A stretch of DNA of 35,305 nt from Schlesneria paludicola DSM 18645 (GTDB taxonomy: Bacteria; Planctomycetota; Planctomycetia; Planctomycetales; Planctomycetaceae). This document shows, in pieces, positions 11,153-26,243 of the stretch. Location: positions 1-35,305 of the forward strand of contig CAMAYU010000043.1 in NCBI GenBank assembly GCA_945862235.1, written 5' to 3'. Each line of letters begins with the position of its first letter. Positions within the stretch are counted from its first letter, which is position 1. The notes beneath the pieces are model-generated. The model had not been told where the DNA came from. It saw nothing but the letters and a program-made list of their open reading frames with translations, and made no database searches. Both the position numbers and the translations under genes were made by a program.

Positions 11153-11926
11153 ATGTCGAAATTGGAACGGACTCGTCGGTTGAGATTGTCGCGCAGTCGG
11201 CGGCTGACGATTGATGTGCTGCATTACAACCGGCAGGTGCCGACGTGTGCTCATGACCGGCGGTGCGACCTGTCTCGCGTGGCCGAGATACGGTCGCGGT
11301 TGCCGGTGCGGGTGTCGTGGTCGCTGCTGTTCATCAAGGCGTTTGCGATCGTGGCCTTGCGGCGGAACGTGTTGCGTCAGGCCTTTGTCGCGTGGCCGTG
11401 GCCGCATGTGCTCGAACATCCTCACAGCGTCGGGATGCTCGCCACGCATCGTGATCATCGGGGCGAGCCGTGGGTGCTTTGGTCGCGGTTCTTGCGGCCG
11501 GAGTCTCGCGCGTTGGTCGAGATGCAACTGAGCTTGGACAAGTACCAGACCGAGCCGGTCGAAGCGATCTTTCCGTTTCAGTGGCAGCTCAGCGGACTGC
11601 CGCAGTTGCTGCGTCGGTGCATCTGGTGGTGGACGCTGAACATCGCGGGCGGCAAGCGAGCCAAGCGAGTCGGCACGTTTTTTCTGACGACGCTGGCGTC
11701 GAAAGGGGTCGAGATTCAAGACCCGCCCGCGTTTCTCACCAGCAACCTGACGTTTGGGCCGCTGGACGAAGCAGGCTGCTGCCGCGTGACGCTCTCTTAC
11801 GATCACCGCTTGATGGACGGGTCGTATGCCGCCGACTGCTTGATCGAATTGGAAGCGATGTTAAATGGTGAGATCGCTGACGAGCTGGAGTCGCTCATCG
11901 CAGCCGGACAGGCTAATGCAGCGTGA
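11153..11926 (+). CDS. 2-oxoacid dehydrogenase E2-type acyltransferase domain protein
   Basis: This 257-residue protein shows the C-terminal signature of the CAT/E2 acyltransferase fold, RVTLSYDHRLMDGSYAADCL (residues 211-230). His218 and Asp222 occupy the places of the catalytic His and structural Asp of the HxxxDG motif. LTSNLTFGPLDEAGCCRVTL just before it also fits the fold. There is no lipoyl domain or subunit-binding domain, and no E1 or E3 gene is nearby, so it is not a complete dehydrogenase E2. It could transfer an acyl group to another substrate, as stand-alone members of the superfamily do. No strong ribosome-binding site is visible at ATG 11153. Confidence 0.75.
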   Translation: MSKLERTRRLRLSRSRRLTIDVLHYNRQVPTCAHDRRCDLSRVAEIRSRLPVRVSWSLLFIKAFAIVALRRNVLRQAFVAWPWPHVLEHPHSVGMLATHRDHRGEPWVLWSRFLRPESRALVEMQLSLDKYQTEPVEAIFPFQWQLSGLPQLLRRCIWWWTLNIAGGKRAKRVGTFFLTTLASKGVEIQDPPAFLTSNLTFGPLDEAGCCRVTLSYDHRLMDGSYAADCLIELEAMLNGEIADELESLIAAGQANAA

Positions 11927-12740: not shown

Positions 12741-14024
12741 CTACAAAGCCTGCCCCGACTCCAGCCGCTGCCGGGCGATGTCGGCCCACGGGCCGCGTTG
12801 GTCGAACTCGAGATAGCGCCGCCAGTGCGTGGCCGCTTCATCGCGGTGCCCGCTCTGTTCGAGTAGCTCGGCGAGGTGGAAGTGGGCGTCCGGGTAATCG
12901 GGATGCAGGTCGAGGGCGACTCGAAACGCTTCTTGGGCCGACTTGGTCTTGCCTGTCTCGGCGAAGAGGCAGCCGAGTTGAGTCCACGCTTCGAGGAAGT
13001 CGTGATCCAGTTCGACGGCCATGTGATAGCGTTCGATCGCGGCGTCCGGTCGGCCTTCGCGGTAGAGGGCGTCGGCGAGATGAAAGTGATGCGCCGGGTT
13101 AAGCGGTTCCTCAATGAGAGCCAGCCGAAACGCTTCGATGGCCGCGTCGATCTCATGTTCTTCCGCGAGACGGCAGCCTTCGCGAAACCATTCGTCGGCG
13201 GTCCAGTCGCGGCGGTTGATCGCGTCGCTAGATGACGCAGCGGCAACATCGGGCCGCATCGGAATGGTGTCCGCACGGTCATTCGAATCGTGTGCGACAA
13301 GTTCAGCAGGGCAGGGGAGTGGCTCGAAGTCGAAGACTCGCTGGCCGCTGGATGGCTCGACGAGTCCGGTCGCGTCGCGATAGAGGAAGTGCTTCCCGCG
13401 CGAGAGGACTTCCAACTGAGCGAGCGGCCGATCGACGTTCGGCAGGATGGCTCGCAGCCGCTCCAAGCCTGATGCGAGTTCGTCGAGACTCACGCCGGAG
13501 CGGGCGAGTTCATTGAGGCGTCTCGCGCCGGTCACTTCTTGGAAGTCGAAGTAGGGGAGCCGGAAGACTTTCTTGACCGCGCGGATCAGTCCGTCTCGCT
13601 CCCACCGCCGGATCTCGTGGACCGAGATGGCCAGAAGCTGGCTGAGCATCGCGGGGGTGTAGAGCTGCTGTTGCTTTCGCTCGCCCGGCTCAACTCCCAG
13701 CAGATTGAGCCATTCCGATTCGGACAGGATGCGGAGCGGCTCACCATTGTCGTGAAGCTGCTGCGCCTGTTCGAGTTTTACCGAGACTCGTCCATCCGCT
13801 TCGAGCGGCCAGCCTTCCTCACCGACCACGAGCAGCGTGGTCTGATGGCTAACGTGCTGCCCCGATGAACCGCCGTGTTGCTCGGCGAGGTCCATCGCCT
13901 GCCGATGGGTCATCGACGCGAGCGTCCCCGTAAACGCGACTCGCTCACCTTGAAGGACGGGTGAACTTTGGATCGGCTTCGCATCGGGCGGCGACATCGC
14001 ATCAGAATCGGCCGGTTCGGTCAT
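12741..14024 (-). CDS. BRCT + MerR-type HTH + TPR regulatory protein
   Basis: This protein of 427 residues has three recognisable parts. Residues about 25-110 form a BRCT domain (GERVAFTGTLASMTHRQAMDLAEQHGG), like that of NAD-dependent ligase. About 118-185 form a MerR-type helix-turn-helix (YTPAMLSQLLAISVHEIRRW, then DGLIRAVKKVFRLPYFDFQE). About 275-425 hold tandem tetratricopeptide repeats (AIEAFRLALIEEPLNPAHHF, AIERYHMAVELDHDFLEAW, AQEAFRVALDLHPDYPDAHF). No signal peptide or membrane segment is present, so it is cytoplasmic. A DNA-associated regulator or scaffold is a reasonable inference; partners are unknown. I start at MTEPADSD (14024) because the 40 codons upstream look non-coding. It is divergent from glyA. 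Confidence 0.85.
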   Translation of the reverse strand: MTEPADSDAMSPPDAKPIQSSPVLQGERVAFTGTLASMTHRQAMDLAEQHGGSSGQHVSHQTTLLVVGEEGWPLEADGRVSVKLEQAQQLHDNGEPLRILSESEWLNLLGVEPGERKQQQLYTPAMLSQLLAISVHEIRRWERDGLIRAVKKVFRLPYFDFQEVTGARRLNELARSGVSLDELASGLERLRAILPNVDRPLAQLEVLSRGKHFLYRDATGLVEPSSGQRVFDFEPLPCPAELVAHDSNDRADTIPMRPDVAAASSSDAINRRDWTADEWFREGCRLAEEHEIDAAIEAFRLALIEEPLNPAHHFHLADALYREGRPDAAIERYHMAVELDHDFLEAWTQLGCLFAETGKTKSAQEAFRVALDLHPDYPDAHFHLAELLEQSGHRDEAATHWRRYLEFDQRGPWADIARQRLESGQAL

Positions 14025-14192
14025 GACAGCTCGCGTGTTGAGTGGCAGGTGATTTGGCGGGCAGAGTATAAACCTTGCCCGTCGCAGCCGTGAGCGACTC
14101 ACTGTGACGAAAGTTCCATCCGAACCGCGAATTCTGGACGGCATCCGCGCTCAGATTCTGCGGGTATGCCAGAGAACAGAGACGAAGAGAAG

Positions 14193-14264: not shown

Positions 14265-15515
14265 ATGACCCGCATGACCGCACTGCAAACCAACGATCCC
14301 GCGTTGTGGGAAGCCCTTCAGGCCGAGCGAGTCCGTCAGCGTGATGGTCTCGAGTTGATTGCGTCTGAGAATTACACGTCGGCCGCCGTGTTGGAGGCGG
14401 CGGGAACGATCCTTACGAACAAGTATGCCGAGGGCTATCCCGGTCGACGCTACTACGGCGGCTGTGAACATGTGGACACGATCGAAATGCTGGCCATTGA
14501 GCGAGCGAAGAAGCTGTTCGGGGCGGAACATGTGAACGTGCAGCCTCACGCCGGATCTCAGGCCAACATGGCTGTCTATCTGACGCTGATGAAGCCGGGC
14601 GACACGTACCTCGCGATGAATCTGGCTCATGGCGGACACCTCACGCACGGGCATCAGCTCAATTTTTCGGGACAGCTCTACACGCCGATCCCTTACGGCG
14701 TGCGCGAGTCCGATCATCGGATCGACTTCGACGAGGTGGCCCGTCTAGCGCGAGAGCACAAGCCGAAGATGATCGTCGCCGGAGCGAGTGCCTATCCGCG
14801 CGAGATCGATCACGCGAAGTTCGCTGAGATCGCGCAAGAGGTCGGTGCCAAGCTGTGGGTCGATATGGCTCACTACGCGGGACTCGTAGCCGGTGGCGTT
14901 CACAACAGCCCCGTCCCGGTCGCCGACTTCGTGTCGAGCACCTCGCACAAGACACTGCGCGGCCCGCGATCGGGCTTCGTCCTGTGCAAGGCAGAGTACG
15001 CGAAAGACCTCGACAAGTCGGTCTTCCCCGGAATGCAGGGCGGCCCGCTGATGCACGTCATCGCGGCGAAAGCGGTCTGCTTTGACGAGGCGTCTCAGCC
15101 GTCGTTCAAGCTCTACGCACAACAGATCGTCGCCAACGCGAAGACTCTGGCCGAGACCCTGATGAGCGGCGGAATCAAACTCGCCAGCGGCGGGACCGAC
15201 AATCACCTGATGCTCTGCGACGTGACGGCCATCGGCCTGACCGGCAAGATTGCCGAGAAGGCTCTCGACCACGCGGGCATCACCGTCAACAAAAACATGA
15301 TCCCGTTCGACCAGCGCAAGGCACTCGATCCGAGCGGCATCCGCATCGGCACCGCCGCCCTCACCACGCGCGGCATGAAGCAGGAGGAGATGAAAAAAGT
15401 CGGTGCCTGGATTCTGTCCGTCCTGCGAGCACCGGAGGACGCCGCCGTCATCGAACGCGTTCGCGGCGAGATCCAGTCGTTCTGCACCGCCTTCCCGGTT
15501 CCGGGCATCGGCTGA
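14265..15515 (+). CDS. glyA: Serine hydroxymethyltransferase
   Basis: GlyA interconverts serine plus tetrahydrofolate with glycine plus 5,10-methylene-tetrahydrofolate using pyridoxal phosphate, in the cytoplasm. It is the main source of one-carbon units. The 416-residue length is normal. The N-terminal [20 protein letters not shown], the [21 protein letters not shown] segment, [16 protein letters not shown], the [14 protein letters not shown] segment and the PLP lysine K229 in [14 protein letters not shown] are all present. A second ATG three codons in (14274) has better spacing to GAAAG and could be the true start. A rho-independent terminator follows directly. The gene is divergent from the BRCT/MerR/TPR gene, with half of a dispersed repeat in its leader. 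Confidence 0.97.
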
Positions 15516-15947: not shown

Positions 15948-17726
15948 ATGTCACTCGCCAGTGCGACACCGCACGAGTGGGAATCGATCGACATCACGCT
16001 GATCGGGCGAGATGGCGAGATCGGCGGTGCTCCGCCCGGACAAATGCCCTCGGAGTCGATGGTCGGTTCGTCGCGGGCCGGGCAGTCTTCCATGATAGGC
16101 CAGTCGCGACTCGGCCAATCACGGGTCTCGCAGAGTATCCCCTCGCTCCCCGATGCGCTAGCGGCGACGCACACGCCGGGTGCCGCAGTGGGCGGTCCCC
16201 ACAAAGTGATCTGTCCCGGTACCGCCAGCGAACTGTTGCAATCGCGTTTACAGGCGGCGTCGATCGTCTGCTTGATTTGCCTCCTCACGTTCTTCCTGCG
16301 GGCACTTTGCATTGATGAGCCGCTGATCGTGTTGATGCGCAGCATCAGTCTGATTATCCCCATCGGTTGCTTGGGGATGCTCGTTTCACCCGAAGTGCTT
16401 TCGCCGCGTCAACTACGACGGATCGAGATGCTGCTGTTCGGGCCACTCTGTGCGTTGGTCGTGTTGTTACAGATCATCTTCCTGATCAAGGCCGTTGAAG
16501 CCGGAGACACTCCGCAGCAGGTGGCCGTGGTCTATTCGGGGACGCTTGGACTGGCGGTGTTGATGCTGGCGTATGGCATGTTGATGCCCAACGGTTGGAA
16601 ACGTACGGCCCTGATGATGGTGCCGCCGGTATTGTCGCCCACGGTTGCGCTGCTGATCGCTCGTGTGCTGCTTCCCACAATGTCTGAAACGATCGACTTG
16701 ATGCGAGGCATTGAGATCGGCGTGGCACTGCTCATCACGGGTGGCATCGCGACCTATGGGACTCACGCGCTCTCGAACTTGCGGCAGGAAGTTCGCAAGG
16801 CCAAGAAGCGACTCGGCCAATACAAGCTGACGGTGGAATTGGGGCAGGGGGGGATGGGCCAGGTCTTTCTGGGCGAACATCAACTGCTGAAGCGACCGTG
16901 CGCGATCAAAGTCATTCAGCCAGAACAGGTCGGCGATCCTTCGGCACTGAAGCGGTTCGAGCGGGAAGTCCGCAGCACCGCGCAGTTGTCTCACTGGAAC
17001 ACGATCGAAATCTTCGACTACGGCCACACCGACGACGGCACGTTCTATTACGTGATGGAGTACATGCGGGGATTGAACTTGTCCGATCTGGTCCAACGCT
17101 ATGGACCGTTGCCGCCCGCACGAGCGATCCACTTCCTCAGCCAGACCTGTTGGGCGTTGCAAGAGGCTCACAACCTCGGGCTGATTCACCGCGATCTCAA
17201 GCCAGCGAACATCTTCGCCGCAAAACGAGGCGGTGTTTTCGACGTGACGAAGCTGTTCGACTTTGGCCTCGTCGTGCAAAGCAGCGAGTACGGCTGCGCG
17301 AAGGGCCGCCACGACCCCAACGCGACGACGCCGTTCGCCGGTTCGCCGCTCTACATGTCGCCCGAACAAGCCGCCGGACTGAAGCTCGATGGAAGAACCG
17401 ACATCTACTCGTTGGGGGCGGTTGGCTACTACCTGCTCACCGGTCGTCCACCATTTGAAGGGAAGTCGGCGTGGCGCGTGATGCAAGCACACGCTCGGGA
17501 TCCCCTCACGCCGCCGTCACGCTGGAACAAGGCGATCCCCAAAGACCTCGAACAAGTCCTCGTTCGCTGCCTCTCGAAAGAGACGGACCAGCGCTACGGT
17601 TCACCCAAAGAAATGGCCGAAGCACTGGCCAAGTGCCACGACGCCGGTCACTGGAACTACGAACACGGCACCGCATGGTGGAAGGAACGGGCGATGGAGA
17701 TCGACCCGACGCTGCTGCACACCTGA
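15948..17726 (+). CDS. Ser/Thr protein kinase with N-terminal membrane domain
   Basis: This 592-residue protein begins with a polar region of about 100 residues containing repeats of the form GQSRLGQSRVSQS. It then has roughly five or six hydrophobic segments between 103 and 275, and finally a kinase domain from about 291. The kinase motifs are complete: glycine loop GQGGMG (299-304), AIK Lys321, HRDLKPAN with Asp416, DFG 438-440, SPE 471-473 and DIYSLGAVGYYLLTGRPPF. It should phosphorylate Ser/Thr residues on cytoplasmic proteins. Most bacterial Hanks-type kinases have the kinase domain first and the membrane helix after it, so this order is reversed. It ends just before repeat E copy 2, convergent with larE. 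Confidence 0.92.
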   Translation: MSLASATPHEWESIDITLIGRDGEIGGAPPGQMPSESMVGSSRAGQSSMIGQSRLGQSRVSQSIPSLPDALAATHTPGAAVGGPHKVICPGTASELLQSRLQAASIVCLICLLTFFLRALCIDEPLIVLMRSISLIIPIGCLGMLVSPEVLSPRQLRRIEMLLFGPLCALVVLLQIIFLIKAVEAGDTPQQVAVVYSGTLGLAVLMLAYGMLMPNGWKRTALMMVPPVLSPTVALLIARVLLPTMSETIDLMRGIEIGVALLITGGIATYGTHALSNLRQEVRKAKKRLGQYKLTVELGQGGMGQVFLGEHQLLKRPCAIKVIQPEQVGDPSALKRFEREVRSTAQLSHWNTIEIFDYGHTDDGTFYYVMEYMRGLNLSDLVQRYGPLPPARAIHFLSQTCWALQEAHNLGLIHRDLKPANIFAAKRGGVFDVTKLFDFGLVVQSSEYGCAKGRHDPNATTPFAGSPLYMSPEQAAGLKLDGRTDIYSLGAVGYYLLTGRPPFEGKSAWRVMQAHARDPLTPPSRWNKAIPKDLEQVLVRCLSKETDQRYGSPKEMAEALAKCHDAGHWNYEHGTAWWKERAMEIDPTLLHT

Positions 17727-24542: not shown

Positions 24543-26243
24543 TCACAAGATGTCGGGCAATTCGGTCATGAACTCCAGTTCCTCAACGGGAGCTGGCGCA
24601 GCTGTTGGTTTTGGGGGAGCGACCGCTGCGGGTGGCGTTTTGATGGGAGCGGGTTTGTTTGCTGGTGGGGCGGATGCGACGGGAGCCGCAACGGAACGCG
24701 GCGCGGCAACATTAGTCGTGGCCGTCGCGGTTGTTGGAACCGATACACGTCCGGCGACGGGCAATGTTCCCGCAGTCGCAATCATCGCGGGATTCGGTGA
24801 AGGGGACGCCGCTCCCGAATTCGATGGGATCGCGCCAGTGGGAACTTTTCCCGCCAGCGGATTCGCCGCCGCAACCGGCATCGATGGCATCGGCATTGCC
24901 GGTGCCATCTGCGGCATTCCCAACGGTGGCTGCCCGGAGATCATCGGTGCGCCGGGCAGCGGTTGAAACGGCAACGGCGGCATCGGCTGCTGTGGCATCG
25001 GCTGGTTTGGATAGCCAGGCATCGCACCTTGAGGGCCACCCATGGGAGGCATTCCGGGCATCTGCATTTGAGGGTAGGGCGCGTAGCCAGGGGGATAACC
25101 GGGCGGCATCTGTGGCATCGGCTGAAAAGACATTTGCTGAGGTTGCTGTGGTGGAGCAGCGGGTGCAGCCGTTGGCTTCGCCGATTTAAGAATCTTCGCT
25201 TTGCGTTCGTCTTCAACCGCCTGCTTCTTCTCTTTTTTATCGCGCAAGTCTTGGGCGTACTGCCGGGCCAAGGCCGGATCGGCAGCCAGCATTTCCTTGA
25301 GCTTTGCATCCGCACGACTATCCAACCGGATGTCGGTGAGCTGGCTCATCGCACTCCCCTCTTTATCGGCGGCTAGCTGCGCGAGCGACTCGTCGGTCAC
25401 GTCCTCTTTGAAAATCTTGATTCGTTTGAGTTCGCTCAAAACTTCATCAATGCTGGCGTGCCGCTCGGCGGGCTTCTTCTTGAGCAGCCGCGCAATCAAT
25501 CGGTCCATTTCGGGCGTGACGTTCGGATTGAATTCGGAGGCATTCGGTGGCGGAGTCGAGAGATGCTTTCGGAGTAGCTCTTCGGGGGTCGGCGCTTGAA
25601 AGGGCGTCTTACCGGTGAGGACTTCGTAGAACAGGATGCCCAAGCTGTAGAGGTCCGTTTGAAAAGTGGGGGCTTGCTTACGAATCGTCTCGGGCGCGAT
25701 GTAGGTCCGCGTCCCTTGAATGGTTTTGAGCCTGCCGCCACCGATCATCTTGGAAAAGCCTGTGACCTCTTTGCTGGAGAGCGAAAAATCGACGAGTCGA
25801 ATCTCACCGACCTTGTTCATCAGCACGTTGTCGGGCTTCACATCGCGATGAATCCAGCCCTTCGAGTGGACGTGGGACATCGCTTGGCAAATGCCTTCAA
25901 ACAATCGGCGTGCCCGCACATGGACCGACGAAATGTTGGCTTTGATCTGCAACTTGACGTTCGCCGCGCGGAAGTGCTCCATCGTCAGATACGTGTTATC
26001 GCGGCTCGACGAAAACTTCTCGAACTTGATGATGAGCGGATGGTCGAGCGTCTTGAGAACTTCGGATTCGTACTTCAATGATGCCTTGTTCTCTTTGAAG
26101 TCGGGCGTATCCGTCTTGAGCAGCTTCATGGCGAGATGTCGCCCCGACGCTTGCTCGATCACTTCCCAGACTTGGCTGCTACCGCCGGTGGCGATGCACA
26201 TGACAAGCTTGTACGTGCCGTCAATCAGTTCTTCGTCAGACAC
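24543..26243 (-). CDS. Ser/Thr protein kinase with Pro/Met/Gln-rich tail
   Basis: This 566-residue cytoplasmic protein has an N-terminal Hanks-type kinase domain (about 10-275). Key residues are AMK Lys40, HRDVKPDN with Asp134, and YIAPET (APE 183-185). Two motifs are unusual: the glycine loop is ATGGSSQVW and the DFG motif is DFS (152-154). Asp152 that binds magnesium remains, so activity is possible. A charged helical linker (about 290-355) is followed by a low-complexity tail (358-566) of Pro, Met, Gln and Ala, with repeated PMP, GYP and MPQ units and no membrane helix. The tail may mediate binding or condensation, which is inference. It lies between the HlyD-like and accA genes on the same strand. 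Confidence 0.88.
   Translation of the reverse strand: MSDEELIDGTYKLVMCIATGGSSQVWEVIEQASGRHLAMKLLKTDTPDFKENKASLKYESEVLKTLDHPLIIKFEKFSSSRDNTYLTMEHFRAANVKLQIKANISSVHVRARRLFEGICQAMSHVHSKGWIHRDVKPDNVLMNKVGEIRLVDFSLSSKEVTGFSKMIGGGRLKTIQGTRTYIAPETIRKQAPTFQTDLYSLGILFYEVLTGKTPFQAPTPEELLRKHLSTPPPNASEFNPNVTPEMDRLIARLLKKKPAERHASIDEVLSELKRIKIFKEDVTDESLAQLAADKEGSAMSQLTDIRLDSRADAKLKEMLAADPALARQYAQDLRDKKEKKQAVEDERKAKILKSAKPTAAPAAPPQQPQQMSFQPMPQMPPGYPPGYAPYPQMQMPGMPPMGGPQGAMPGYPNQPMPQQPMPPLPFQPLPGAPMISGQPPLGMPQMAPAMPMPSMPVAAANPLAGKVPTGAIPSNSGAASPSPNPAMIATAGTLPVAGRVSVPTTATATTNVAAPRSVAAPVASAPPANKPAPIKTPPAAVAPPKPTAAPAPVEELEFMTELPDIL

Follow-up and report, generated by a model that had tools for sequence, protein, structure and literature searches.

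A planctomycete BRCT-MerR-TPR protein with relatives in Ku/LigD loci, a candidate DNA-break accessory scaffold

Bacterial non-homologous end joining (NHEJ) is usually presented as Ku plus LigD (PMC5124664). Rfc1, prokaryotic ligases and PARP1 carry single BRCT domains that are described as one subclass; the Rfc1 domain binds 5'-phosphorylated recessed DNA through a site for the 5' phosphate formed by T166, G167, R174 and K209, a site that resembles the phosphopeptide site of BRCA1 (PMC9359705). The role of the BRCT domain of the NAD-dependent ligase LigA is not fully explained (PMC5052709). Here we describe a gene of Schlesneria paludicola DSM 18645, located in a contig stretch of 35,305 nucleotides (hereafter the window), whose product joins a BRCT domain that by sequence is of this kind to a MerR-type helix-turn-helix (HTH) and a tetratricopeptide (TPR) array, and whose relatives outside the class of the window recurrently adjoin Ku. 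The open-access full texts searched, judged by title and the start of the abstract, describe no MerR/TPR/BRCT protein with Ku or in Planctomycetes; Ku, LigD and tetratricopeptide do occur in one text (PMC10345425) and LigD and MerR in another (PMC10804225). The domains and NHEJ are known, and a Ku-linked MerR-TPR or BRCT-MerR-TPR protein was not found described in that literature.

The features of the gene are collected in Table 1. The first-pass annotation of this DNA, made from the letters alone, had proposed BRCT, MerR-type HTH and TPR domains in one protein, and each of the three indeed scores above its Pfam cut-off: BRCT (PF00533) at residues 21-89 with 23.8 bits (cut-off 21.3), MerR_1 (PF13411) at residues 122-184 with 25.2 bits (cut-off 21.6) and TPR_2 with 64 bits (cut-off 27) over four stretches between residues ~275 and 410. 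The open frame extends to 14144, so that an upstream start is possible; a methionine stands at M1 in 61 of 109 aligned sequences, the starts of the homologues in that alignment having been picked by script. A structure alignment that took in 72 of 80 sequences holds 29 invariant columns, and L204, Q228 and F233 of the connector are invariant in it. The AlphaFold2 model built on this alignment (mean pLDDT 86.5) gives high confidence to the BRCT domain, the winged HTH and nine helices of the TPR region, and low confidence to the N-terminus and residues 111-120 and 211-270. Because a fold search with the whole model returned matches almost entirely to the TPR part, a separate model of the N-terminal part was made and used for a fold search of its own. 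The genome holds one full-length copy, five further matches being to TPR only. NCBIfam has no specific family for four relatives of the protein, and PADLOC returned only two weak partial matches, PrimPol (to the TPR part) and PDC-S48.

Table 1. Coordinates in the window of the BRCT-MerR-TPR gene, its parts and its immediate context
Feature	Position	Strand	Remarks
BRCT-MerR-TPR gene	12741..14024	-	Open frame, 427 aa; Pfam and homologues
Single BRCT domain, RFC1/LigA class by sequence	13695..13964	-	Residues 21-110; Pfam, profile and fold
T32-G33, aligned with yeast Rfc1 T166-G167 (first half of the phosphate site)	13926..13931	-	Ungapped profile alignment
H40, at the place of Rfc1 R174	13905..13907	-	H, R or K in 103/109 sequences
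K83, opening helix alpha-2, probably equivalent to Rfc1 K209	13776..13778	-	K in 53/109 sequences
MerR-type winged HTH	13470..13664	-	Residues 121-185; Pfam; GlnR and TnrA are the nearest solved relatives
Conserved connector	13320..13469	-	Residues 186-235; helices and a short strand pair; model confidence low after ~210
TPR array	12765..13202	-	Residues 275-420; Pfam and model
-10-like TATACT	14065..14070	-	Conserved among 8 close relatives; context only
glyA (SHMT), divergent neighbour	14265..15515	+	Context only

The BRCT domain belongs to the superfamily by both profile match above cut-off and fold, and one such stretch only is seen in Pfam and in the AlphaFold2 model, tandem repeats of the BRCA1 type being absent. 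All nine PDB matches of the BRCT profile (A4, built from 22 sequences, profiles A2 and A3 being built from 49) with E values up to 0.01 are to RFC1 or LigA, human and yeast RFC1 ranking first (best 2k6g, 8.7e-8) and LigA next. The fold search places LigA at the top (Z 10.9 over 78 residues, 1.7 A) and Rfc1 close behind (Z 10.7 over 79 residues, 2.2 A). Like the RFC1 domain (2k6g, 2ebu, 7u1a, 7tfh), it is a single BRCT, for which RFC1 is the best sequence match and a near-best fold match; unlike it, it is fused to an HTH and TPRs and is not part of a clamp loader. It shares with LigA (9a6z, an integrative model, and 2owo) the top fold match and the second sequence family, and the protein differs from LigA in having no ligase domains. 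The strongest NCBIfam match to the region (PRK06195, residues 22-108, 4.4e-15) is far under that model's own cut-off and points to DNA polymerase III epsilon-like exonucleases; plasmid matches often bear the name 'exonuclease domain-containing protein', whereas the protein of the window lacks an exonuclease domain and the match covers only the end of the model. The first-pass annotation had mentioned the reading of DNA ends as a usual activity of BRCT domains, and this part of its proposal may be said to have gained support from the exclusive RFC1 and LigA sequence matches and from the Ku/LigD loci of relatives described below.

The phosphate site is partly retained. In the protein of the window T32, G33 and K83 match Rfc1, K83 being equated with K209 from a K-L motif and its helix position across an insertion, and the Rfc1 arginine is replaced by histidine. 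T32 is found in 66 and G33 in 108 of the 109 sequences (one is truncated there), and T32 occurs together with K83 in 52, that of the window included. Both are missing in 42, largely Pirellulales-type by record title, which sets these members apart from the RFC1 domain and indicates that the site is not always needed. The ten sequences from outside the class all have T, G and R or H at position 40, with K at position 83 in two and H in three. As for other BRCT proteins, the assembly itself has one Pfam BRCT match and, at 97.3% completeness, no match to an NAD-dependent (LigA) or ATP-dependent ligase; this absence is probably an assembly gap, since 14 of 14 genomes of the same genus have LigA, and on the same count we rejected the idea that the BRCT is the sole one of its genome owing to loss of LigA.

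A scan of genome contigs returned 165 relatives, the best 79 of which (36-74% identity in the best segment) comprise 78 with planctomycete titles and one titled 'bacterium'. A profile of the MerR-containing middle part matched 64 of 392 genomes of the phylum: 27 of 28 in the same family (its own included), 11 of 12 in the rest of the class and 26 of 352 outside the class. Ku is present in 43 of these 352 genomes. Of these 43, 18 are among the 26 genomes that match the profile, and 25, which carry Ku without the family, are among the remaining 326 (Fisher p = 8e-13, a value that ignores kinship). The 18 genomes with both span 12 family labels. Genomes positive for the family without Ku are G050, G054, G249, G264 and four of family f75 (G138, G182, G206, G228); the f75 matches are 207-216 aa long, show no TPR part in the two read and are counted in the 18/26, which becomes 18/22 without them.

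One line of argument for a role of the family at DNA breaks is the proximity of the two genes. Ku and the gene, with or without a BRCT-coding part, lie within 5 kb in 17 of the 18 genomes holding both; in the remaining one (G186) each has a contig of its own. An ATP ligase or LigD is often next to the gene in out-of-class genomes, and Pfam confirmed Ku, ATP ligase or LigD in ten of ten neighbours and Ku in two more. Eleven of the 13 BRCT-bearing out-of-class loci have Ku or ATP ligase within 5 kb (L174, L175, L176, L177, L179, L180, L181, L183, L184, L185 and L190), among them L174, which adjoins Ku and is above all three Pfam cut-offs. The other two, L178 and L182, have neither within that distance, and L182 follows a RadC gene. 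Some out-of-class members have no BRCT (families f16, f27, f46 and f60).

The association extends beyond the phylum. With a BRCT-less relative as query, a homologue search beyond Planctomycetota that covered plasmid records found homologues in Paraburkholderia and Burkholderia. A second plasmid search gave 55 records, of which the 33 with at least 80% coverage are all from Burkholderiales and the remaining 22 match mostly the TPR part. Among the best 60 of 684 records of a Ku search, a Ku match lies just upstream on the same strand in 32 of the 33 Burkholderiales records, one match spanning the record origin, several being partial and several records being near-identical. LigD is annotated in 5 of 9 annotated plasmid stretches, and BRCT is absent from the eight plasmid loci checked. 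The records name these proteins 'tetratricopeptide repeat protein', 'TPR repeat-containing protein', 'helix-turn-helix domain-containing protein' or 'MerR family transcriptional regulator'. In the last of the 33, a Paraburkholderia replicon, two short Ku-like pieces lie beside the MerR-TPR gene (L215, 4874-5040).

In a tree built from 63 MerR-TPR regions, with five Burkholderiales rows assumed as the root, the class of the window forms one clade (support 100/96). Its sister clade (89/91) has 17 rows, 13 of them Ku-linked; four BRCT-less Ku-linked rows fall outside both. Ten of the 37 rows taken as the class were labelled in the genome search or are the window, and 27 were assigned from record titles. 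L169, which profile A4 missed, was scored as BRCT-bearing through alignment of L113 from the same genome. The trees omit L167, L170, L207, L208 and L209 as duplicates or odd sequences, and this one also omits L193 and L168 for their long branches; two plasmid loci, L214 and L215, were without a profile match. The tree requires four changes for the BRCT domain, which one gain and three losses would explain, and five for Ku linkage. From this topology and these counts, Ku linkage looks ancestral and the lineage of the window derived.

The situation in the class itself is different. The gene is present in 38 of 40 sampled genomes, Ku in 4 and ATP ligase in 11, so that most class orthologues cannot work with Ku, and any link of the window's protein to break repair is by descent, most of the class being without Ku and ATP ligase. 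Neither Ku nor ligase was found among twenty other frames scanned in the window; the Ku of this genome is on another contig (C19, the window being on C43), and the gene thus adjoins neither Ku nor ligase. That Ku is diverged and directly precedes TnsA-like and TnsB-like genes (L194, 4953-8705 of G000:C19); the same order is seen at L199 (4561-9246 of G369:C5), where TnsA-like and TnsB-like genes, with TniB/TnsC in addition, come immediately after the gene of a diverged Ku-domain protein. Both Ku genes seem to travel with the core part of a transposon of the Tn7-like kind. G216, one of the four Ku-bearing class genomes, has a diverged extra copy of the family just downstream of Ku (L195, 4713-5735 of G216:C26), in which a weak BRCT-like part, a half-lost HTH and TPR parts can be made out.

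We propose, with slightly less than even confidence, that the family is a DNA-break accessory scaffold that was ancestrally part of Ku/LigD end-joining loci. The winged HTH, probably as a dimer, would grip duplex DNA; the single RFC1-type BRCT, at a nick or at a recessed end, would bind a phosphate, either the 5' phosphate or one of the backbone; and the TPR array would hold a protein partner, which may be Ku or an ATP-dependent ligase in the Ku-linked lineages and another repair protein, perhaps LigA, in the class of the window. DNA-end binding, dimerisation and the TPR partner are inferred for the family, as is a continuing role of the window's own copy in break repair. The relatives sit in NHEJ loci (Ku, LigD, ATP-dependent ligase) of two phyla; the family differs from the known systems in not being a named component, and the window's own gene in not being beside Ku or ligase. 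More tentatively, and with greater doubt than the scaffold role itself, MerR-TPR proteins might be an overlooked third component of bacterial NHEJ in Planctomycetota and on Burkholderiales plasmids, to which planctomycetes added a 5'-phosphate-reading RFC1-type BRCT and which in one class outlived Ku to become a near-universal, Ku-independent break-recognition protein. A recurrent Ku neighbour with modules for duplex DNA, possibly a 5' phosphate, and protein scaffolding would add a component to NHEJ, one whose likeness to BRCT scaffolds in eukaryotic repair is a matter of layout only. A class that keeps the family mostly without Ku makes the family's own function directly testable.

The first-pass annotation had proposed a regulator linking DNA state to gene control, and this stands as the main rival reading: a MerR-type transcription factor whose BRCT senses damage and whose TPRs bind a co-regulator, and which would control the Ku/LigD operon as well as, in the class of the window, its own gene or others. 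We consider it rather unlikely. The HTH is nearest in sequence to GlnR (2.9e-5) and then TnrA among solved proteins, HiNmlR and GlnR are weakly matched by Foldseek (E 0.02-0.03). In the alignment, R139 (107 of 109 sequences) and W141 (108 of 109) fall at the R and the second Y of the GlnR IRYYE motif. In many relatives the gene comes immediately after Ku, a position that a regulator of an operon can take, and in the window it is solitary and divergent. However, the likeness to GlnR and TnrA is confined to the winged HTH sequence. The protein has a BRCT before the HTH and TPRs after it, with no known sensor domain and no effector-binding domain by Pfam; where a long dimer helix was looked for after the HTH, the monomer model has helices at 180-191 and 198-210. 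Eight aligned upstream regions share the -10-like box and, close to the start, a GCCAC stretch, and no palindromic operator was seen in them by eye, a weak test. A transcription factor would also give an RFC1-class BRCT no clear reason, and the Ku-side copy of G216 has lost half of its HTH while keeping its weak BRCT-like and TPR parts. Read from sequence and gene order, the modules and the linkage would speak more for a scaffold at DNA breaks than for a regulator alone.

That the BRCT reads phosphopeptides produced by Hanks-type kinases and relays them to gene control, as had also been suggested, we regard as improbable. The two kinases noted in the window are real (15948-17726, + strand, and 24543-26243, - strand), the phosphate site is like the one in BRCTs that bind phosphopeptides (PMC9359705), and in the fold search Rad4 BRCTs with bound phosphopeptide score level with RFC1 and LigA (Z 10.1 against 10.1-10.9), so that fold ranks alone cannot separate these classes. 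Yet there is one BRCT and no tandem pair, its sequence matches are RFC1 and LigA, T32 and K83 are both missing in 42 of the 109 sequences, and the kinase genes are not conserved neighbours: just 9 of 80 neighbourhoods, that of the window among them, have a gene that clusters with the kinase at 15948. What recurs instead is the linkage to Ku and ligase. The analysis brought this idea no positive support. Of the phosphate pocket, T32, G33 and K83 are present and the arginine is replaced by histidine; the pocket is lost in the members lacking both T32 and K83, while other members have both residues. Neither of the two outcomes that the first-pass annotation named as refuting its proposal, an absence of profile matches or a loss of the pocket from all homologues, was found.

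Neighbours in the class vary, with none common to all loci, and the commonest ones (glyA, a MOFRL glycerate-kinase-like gene, YTV-repeat and lipoate-ligase genes, the last two common in Pirellulales-type loci) are not repair genes. A regulator of glycine and one-carbon metabolism, read from the divergent position to glyA, is the least probable role, since the pattern (a divergent upstream glyA no more than ~1.3 kb away in 32 of the 56 relatives that belong to the lineage of the window, counting those at contig ends, and the MOFRL gene upstream in seven others) fits vertical inheritance within one family, and as a general role it was rejected, glyA being beside none of the 42 T32-less and none of the ten out-of-class sequences in the flanks examined, some of only 1.5 kb. 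A RecQ-like DEAD helicase, a neighbour in keeping with the break-repair reading, lies two genes upstream in four of the seven MOFRL loci. Elsewhere in the window, the frame at 11153-11926 (+ strand) encodes a protein of 257 aa whose sole match is a short one, to the final part of the 2-oxoacid dehydrogenase acyltransferase catalytic domain; it may be a remnant, or else a stand-alone form that has diverged.
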